DNA from: Thermoplasmata archaeon
GTDB taxonomy: Archaea; Thermoplasmatota; Thermoplasmata; Halarchaeoplasmatales; Halarchaeoplasmataceae
Direction of reading: 5' to 3'
NCBI GenBank assembly: GCA_003553085.1
Contig: PUPH01000088.1
Location: 1-38,933, forward strand
DNA: 38,933 bases
The notes beneath the pieces were generated by a model, which saw nothing but the letters and a program-made list of their open reading frames with translations, searched no databases and was not told where the DNA came from. Each line of letters starts with the position of its first letter. Positions within the stretch are counted from its first letter, which is position 1. The position numbers and the translations under genes were made by a program. Of the stretch, positions 15,902 to 23,918 are shown in pieces.

Positions 15902-16005
15902 GCCGAGATAGCCCAGTCTGGTAAGGCGCGAGCTTGGAGACCTAGAGATGGGCCGATCAGCTCGTGGTGCCCTGCACCTCGGGGGTTCGAATCCCTCTCT
16001 CGGCG
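15902..16005 (+). tRNA. tRNA-Ser (anticodon GGA) with 19-nt intron at 15940-15958
   Basis: Acceptor GCCGAGA/TCTCGGC, T arm GGGGGTTCGAATCCCTC, type II variable arm GGTGC-CCT-GCACC, anticodon loop TT-GGA-GA interrupted after position 37; CCA not encoded. Confidence 0.95.
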
Positions 16006-23110: not shown

Positions 23111-23377
23111 TTACTGGTTCTCTTCCTTGATAGATTCCAAACGGCTGATTATATTCCAGATCATCGTCCGACCGTGCAGTGGTATATTTGGATCATCGGC
23201 CATCTCTTCTAGTTTGAATATCGAAGATGCAATTCTAACATCCATGTCATCGTCGGATTCCAGCAATAACTTCTCACACTGATCGGCCCCATTTCGAATA
23301 TTTCTGGGGATAGATGTGTCCTCGGTTATCTGGTCCAGCATGTTACAAACCTGTCTTATCTCCTTTGTAGAGCTCAT
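23111..23377 (-). CDS. UPF0147 family protein
   Basis: IRQVCNMLDQITEDTSIPRNIRNGADQCEKLLL...DDPNIPLHGRTMIWNIISRLESIKE. Confidence 0.9.
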   Translation of the reverse strand: MSSTKEIRQVCNMLDQITEDTSIPRNIRNGADQCEKLLLESDDDMDVRIASSIFKLEEMADDPNIPLHGRTMIWNIISRLESIKEENQ

Positions 23378-23482
23378 CGTTATCACCTCAAAAGGGTTGA
23401 TTTATCGTTGAAACTTAACGACCCTGTGGTAAGGATTCTTCCGGCTATTCTACTTCTTATTATTAAAGGTTATGGTGGATTA

Positions 23483-23580
23483 GAAGATAGGGGGGAGAGG
23501 CCTATCTTCGAACCGAACAGAATCGAAGGACAACGTTTCCCCAAAGCGTCAGTCCTCGGTTAGGGTCCGGAACGGACCTA
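23483..23580. other. Candidate structured RNA: three stem-loops with complementary loops (strand unresolved)
   Basis: 9-bp GAAGATAGG(23483-23491)/CCTATCTTC(23501-23509); AACCGA(23511-23516)/TCGGTT(23556-23561) enclosing GGACaACGTTT-CCCC-AAAgCGTcaGTCC; TAGG(g)TCCG-GAA-CGGACCTA(23561-23580). Confidence 0.5.
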
Positions 23581-23664
23581 TTCATCGTCATATCTCGGAT
23601 CGCATCCTAGATTTATGTAAACTTCCTGCCAACTATAGTGTGCGTCTTCTTCTTTCATTTGCAT
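23578..23664 (-). CDS. Putative near-leaderless small ORF, 28 aa: MQMKEEDAHYSWQEVYINLGCDPRYDDE
   Basis: ATG 23664 lies about 31 nt from centre of a TTTATATA box at 23691-23698; acidic composition; too short for the ORF track. Confidence 0.35.
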   Translation of the reverse strand: MQMKEEDAHYSWQEVYINLGCDPRYDDE

Positions 23665-23690
23665 CACAGTAGTGACTAACCCATGGATCC

Positions 23691-23698
23691 TATATAAA
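23691..23698 (-). promoter_or_regulatory. TATA box (TTTATATA on minus strand) between tRNA-Asn and the sORF
   Basis: Canonical archaeal TATA; predicted TSS near 23668. Confidence 0.5.
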
Positions 23699-23743
23699 GC
23701 TGAACAAGAGGGGGGTGAGTGAAAGTGGTGAAAGTAAAAAATA

Positions 23744-23815
23744 CGCCGTCGACCGGATTCGAACCGGCGACCGCTCGGTTAACAGCCGAGTGCTCTACCA
23801 CTGAGCTACGACGGC
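23744..23815 (-). tRNA. tRNA-Asn (anticodon GTT), no intron
   Basis: Reverse complement GCCGTCGTAGCTCAGTGGTAGAGCACTCGGCTGTTAACCGAGCGGTCGCCGGTTCGAATCCGGTCGACGGCG folds as cloverleaf; followed by T6. Confidence 0.97.
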
Positions 23816-23918
23816 AATATGGGGTCCGTTTTTCAATATAAACAGATCCACTGCCTGTTCAGCACACTGTAAACAGAGGATATATTAAAACCTTTTAGTC
23901 GGTTCCCATGATATGTAT

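Follow-up and report, generated by a model that had tools for sequence, protein, structure and literature searches.

A conserved microprotein gene with a probable structured 3' UTR, apparently part of a DNA-repair regulon in Thermoplasmatota

The window, that is, the whole 38,933-nt stretch of a Thermoplasmata archaeon contig that we analysed, carries a row of hairpins at 23483-23580 that we interpret, with a probability of about 0.72, as the structured 3' UTR of a minus-strand microprotein mRNA in a DNA-repair regulon. Comparison among relatives shows that the peptide gene is under selection, that a conserved 3' structure with covariation is linked to it, and that its promoter element also stands before repair genes. 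What could have been an orphan RNA becomes a testable gene, whose microprotein family is absent from the libraries searched and conserved across an archaeal phylum. The gene appears to be new and is apparently wired into a DNA-repair regulon; the genes behind the promoter motif can be listed as candidate members of it, and the peptide may act as a damage effector. The features on which this reading is based are listed in Table 1.

The first-pass annotation had described three consecutive stem-loops at 23483-23580, and inspection of the sequence finds them there as described. Read on the plus strand, the first is GAAGATAGG-GGGGAGAGG-CCTATCTTC (23483-23509), the middle one has a GGAC..GTCC stem with a CCCC loop inside AACCGA/TCGGTT, and the third is GGTCCG-GAA-CGGACC, a stem of six Watson-Crick pairs plus one G-U rather than the 8 bp that had been counted. 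The complementarity of the loops, GGGGA with UCCCC, is likewise present in the window, and recurs in five window-like loci. A comparison with Rfam had been suggested, and a covariance-model search of the stretch against Rfam 15 matched no families (0) at gathering or permissive thresholds. Hence the proposal of a novel structured RNA holds as far as a conserved structure without an Rfam match is concerned, but not as a free-standing RNA gene, as the hairpins stay with a small gene on the minus strand. This 29-codon gene, previously unannotated and bordering the stretch, had been missed; its stop codon (23578-23580) forms the exact edge of the stretch, and the hairpins occupy exactly the gap between that stop codon and the minus-strand promoter of the UPF0147 gene.

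Table 1. Features of the small-gene locus, in minus-strand order (positions in the window)
Feature	Position	Strand	Basis or remark
tRNA-Asn (GTT), upstream	23743..23816	-	
Promoter element ACTTTCACTCACCCCC, motif ACTTTC-N4-ACCCC	23711..23726	-	same element before DNA-repair genes
TATA box CTTTATATAG of the small gene	23690..23699	-	about 24-32 nt upstream of GTG; same layout in relatives
Leaderless microprotein ORF, GTG start, 29 aa, VMQMKEEDAHYSWQEVYINLGCDPRYDDE	23578..23667	-	conservation, pN/pS
Hairpin 3, GGUCCG-UUC-CGGACC	23564..23578	-	begins at last base of stop codon
Hairpin 2, variable stem, invariant GGGGA in loop (23538-23542)	23528..23555	-	five-locus pair counts
Small conserved hairpin UCGA-UUCUGU-UCGG; CCGAUUCUGUUCGG in relatives	23513..23526	-	conserved in genus
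Hairpin 1, GAAGAUAGG-CCUCUCCCC-CCUAUCUUC, 3' hairpin of transcript; C-rich loop 23492-23500	23483..23509	-	position, folding
UPF0147 promoter CCTTTAATAATAAG	23456..23469	-	kept upstream of UPF0147 in relative G003 without hairpins
UPF0147-like gene, 88 aa, downstream (family name as in the first-pass annotation)	23111..23377	-	

A DNA search of 61 genomes returned matches in 13 of them, and their conserved core (about 23580-23668) adjoins the hairpin stretch but lies mainly outside it. Since differences within the ORF are concentrated at third codon positions (0.44 versus 0.10 and 0.06) and pN/pS is low (0.10 in the window's own family, f1, and 0.06 in f3), we consider the ORF a real gene; these values argue strongly for purifying selection, and translation is predicted. 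A profile search found the peptide in 88 of 300 Thermoplasmata genomes; with a broader profile it also turned up in other classes of Thermoplasmatota, with the same promoter element. Named matches come from hypersaline and soda-lake Thermoplasmata MAGs, for instance Candidatus Saliniplasma and Candidatus Haladaptatiplasma; viral contigs gave none. The peptide is acidic, has a conserved HYSW-EVY-GC pattern and shows no obvious sign of being a membrane protein, and profile and sequence searches of Pfam, NCBIfam and PDB returned no match to it.

The TATA box is as far from the GTG as it should be if a leaderless transcript began at the GTG itself. A minus-strand TATA-like element at 23691-23698 had already been pointed out as a possible promoter of the RNA; a TATA box does exist there (23690-23699), and it would drive the small gene rather than an RNA alone. 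We infer a minus-strand mRNA of about 185 nt that would be leaderless and encode a 29-aa microprotein belonging to a family conserved in Thermoplasmatota. The most likely role of the hairpins at its 3' end is to set or protect that end and to keep the transcript apart from the UPF0147 promoter, which follows immediately downstream. Elsewhere in the window, Rfam, though not ARAGORN, detected a 104-bp tRNA gene at 15902-16005 (+), which probably contains an intron.

After the small gene's stop codon, many families have CCAUCCC, then a covarying hairpin of 9-13 bp, then a U tract. CCAUCCC follows the stop codon in f3, f8, f14, f18, f21 and f23, and a U tract comes directly after the hairpin in relatives of f8, f14, f18 and f23. 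Compensatory changes occur in two separate alignments, with covariation scores, computed from pair counts, above those of all shuffles and slid controls. A covariance model built from f3, f18 and f21 (R1) recovers one clear locus per genome in these families, at the small gene. That most families have a hairpin and a U tract here would also be expected of a plain terminator or 3'-end stabiliser behind an ordinary small gene, whose upstream motif would then be a general promoter feature and no DNA-damage element. We regard this reading as unlikely, though deserving of some weight: in the 587 kb retrieved, the CCAUCCC-hairpin-U element occurs 23 times, each time behind the small gene and never at another gene, a tally over DNA mostly fetched around the small gene or the promoter motif and hence not genome-wide, and one that includes a locus (L080) where an extended ORF has its stop about 10 nt upstream of the element.

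The genus of the window is divergent with respect to this class-wide element. The window does have a hairpin behind the ORF and on its strand, and the genus keeps the hairpins, with two further ones beyond hairpin 1; against our preferred reading, there is no CCAUCCC after the stop codon in this genus and no U tract adjoining hairpin 1, after which the window has UCUAAUCC instead of the directly adjoining U tract of an intrinsic-type terminator. Hairpin 1 sits where the 3' hairpin stands across the class, and position, strand and the GATAGG stem suggest that the two may be homologous; R1, which we tried as a link between them, does not score hairpin 1. The GATAGG hairpin was also considered as a genomic repeat family, and this returned only unrelated chance matches. 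At the position of hairpin 3, one relative (G001, locus L007) has a different GC-rich hairpin.

Hairpin 2 offers pairing data from the five window-like loci. In a hand-made alignment of its stem, with bulges removed, there are 38 Watson-Crick, 4 G-U and 0 A-C pairs, with two-sided changes at several pairs, so that the stem is fully variable yet always paired while the loop GGGGA is invariant. The stem is thus maintained by compensatory change, as the first-pass annotation had anticipated for a genuine structure. The stem sequence of hairpin 1 is constant across the same loci, and both complementary loop motifs are nearly invariant there; a kissing interaction between the GGGGA and UCCCC loops is possible. 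The C-rich loop reads CCUCUCCCC in the window and CUCC in many relatives, and in several families CUCC and the 7-nt CCAUCCC are more conserved than the stems.

Such conservation, together with the invariance of GGGGA beside a changing stem, would suit a dual-function RNA that encodes the peptide and, as the whole transcript or a processed 3' part, also acts in trans. The C-rich loop and the single-stranded CCAUCCC would then pair with start regions or Shine-Dalgarno sequences, and a kissing contact with GGGGA of hairpin 2 would keep the C-rich loop inactive. We find this reading quite improbable, considering that f14, f18 and f21 lack the loop motif, that the genus of the window lacks CCAUCCC, and that the loop pairing exhibits no covariation. 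Its boldest form, a phylum-wide DNA-damage-inducible archaeal RNA whose leaderless message would encode a 25-30 aa checkpoint-like peptide and whose 3' part would be a trans-acting C-rich RNA restrained by loop-loop contact, is if anything a shade less probable. The evidence for both the dual-function and the kissing-loop ideas is the conservation of the loops.

The strand had been left undecided in the first-pass annotation. We favour the minus strand because of the U tracts, the wobble pairs, the linkage of the hairpins to the small gene in one relative, and the identity of the UPF0147 promoter. Read on the strand of the small gene, the U tracts come 3' to the hairpin. G-U pairs outnumber A-C pairs when counted in minus-strand RNA, both class-wide (29 versus 11) and in hairpin 2 (4 versus 0); the automatic count over f1 as a whole is closer (44 versus 35), because it includes chance hairpins. 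The U-G closing pair of the small hairpin at 23513..23526 is possible only in minus-strand RNA. In the relative G003, the UPF0147 promoter and the hairpins are on separate contigs: the hairpins remain behind the small gene, and the promoter remains at UPF0147 without them. The plus-strand TATA-like element that had been proposed at about 23458-23468 thus turns out to be the minus-strand UPF0147 promoter. An independent structured RNA on the plus strand would be favoured by its better fold in the window, -39.4 kcal/mol (z = -3.2, 1/200 shuffles, hence better than shuffled sequence) versus -32.6 kcal/mol (z = -1.3) on the minus strand. However, its supposed promoter is that of UPF0147, the wobble pairs favour the minus strand, no U tract follows on the plus strand, and the hairpins stay linked to the gene on the minus strand, making this reading highly unlikely. 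Folding energy, tried as a strand test, was ambiguous; it slightly favours the plus strand in the window and in f3, which counts against the minus-strand 3' UTR that we prefer.

The case for a regulon is based on the element ACTTTC-N4-ACCYC, which sits upstream of the TATA box of the small gene. The strict form occurs in 30 of 61 small-gene loci versus 0.01 expected from shuffles; about half of the 61 promoters are without it, which speaks against the 3' UTR reading in its regulon part, and small-gene relatives in other classes also carry the element. Across 11 family genomes, ACTTTC-N4-ACCCC has 63 copies versus 12 in backward controls, with 23 of the 63 coming from the single genome G015, many of them repeats; a relaxed form has 46 versus 8 in 11 other genomes of the class. 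G015 contains many near-identical motif-bearing sequences without clear ORFs (e.g., L149-L162), probably a mobile or repeat family.

The genes behind the motif include RadA, Rad51-like proteins, OB-fold RPA/Ssb-like proteins, NurA, calcineurin-like (Mre11-like) nucleases, an XPD-type helicase, exonuclease VII, Topo VI-B, PolB and HARP proteins. They span Thermoplasmatota (loci L106-L222), and several recur in more than one family: the motif precedes RPA in f1, f3, f18 and f23, and RadA in f1, f15 and f18. This recurrence of the same repair orthologues in separate families argues against a general promoter feature behind a plain terminator, whereas the matches before TnpB, YdjM-like and small zinc-peptide genes argue for it. 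Because matches also occur before TnpB and other mobile genes, small zinc-peptide and YdjM-like genes, or within coding sequence, the motif is not a clean predictor, and these intragenic and mobile-gene matches weaken our preferred reading as well. TnpB-like transposon genes, judged by eye, have an ACTTTC motif promoter at L120, L125, L137, L154, L156 and L220, which suggests that mobile genes are tied to the same control. A second tiny gene family under the motif (L107, L125, L130, L131, L178, L180 and L221) encodes zinc peptides of 30-50 aa with CPxCG...CxxCG-S-C, a pattern resembling the ribonucleotide reductase C-terminal tail.

Taken as a candidate, ACTTTC-N4-ACCYC before repair and replication genes across Thermoplasmatota may mark a damage regulon. 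As genes for recombination, repair and replication have this promoter element too, the microprotein gene is probably induced along with them, DNA damage being one possible trigger, and its peptide is probably a small effector in that response. Our literature search found no description of a repair motif or DNA-repair regulon for Thermoplasmata or Thermoplasmatota. A search with AAA_22 (PF13401) for an Orc1-like regulator was too generic to single one out.

To our knowledge, Archaea are without LexA-type SOS control, and we know of little understanding of the archaeal damage response outside Sulfolobus. The DNA-damage element in Sulfolobus is ANTTTC, bound by Orc1-2 (PMC9738581). The small-gene promoter at 23711-23726 contains this core, its ACTTTC fitting ANTTTC, and repair and recombination genes lie downstream here too, and the two systems may share an origin; on the other hand, the phylum is different, the element here carries in addition a C-rich half (ACCYC) at a constant distance, and the candidate regulon is known from sequence. 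In bacteria, SOS-induced microproteins include SidA, TisB and YneA. Our peptide is similar to these in being a very small protein with a promoter common to repair genes, but it is archaeal, acidic, of the HYSW-EVY-GC type and not obviously membrane-bound, the likeness being one of description with no sequence relation seen. The staphylococcal Rsa RNAs are sRNAs that mask Shine-Dalgarno sites with C-rich loops; a C-rich hairpin loop is also found here, but in the 3' UTR of an ORF. Finally, SR1 of Bacillus subtilis is described as a dual-function sRNA (PMC8501984). As presented there, it resembles the transcript proposed here in combining a small ORF and a structured RNA on one short transcript, with base-pairing being putative in our case.
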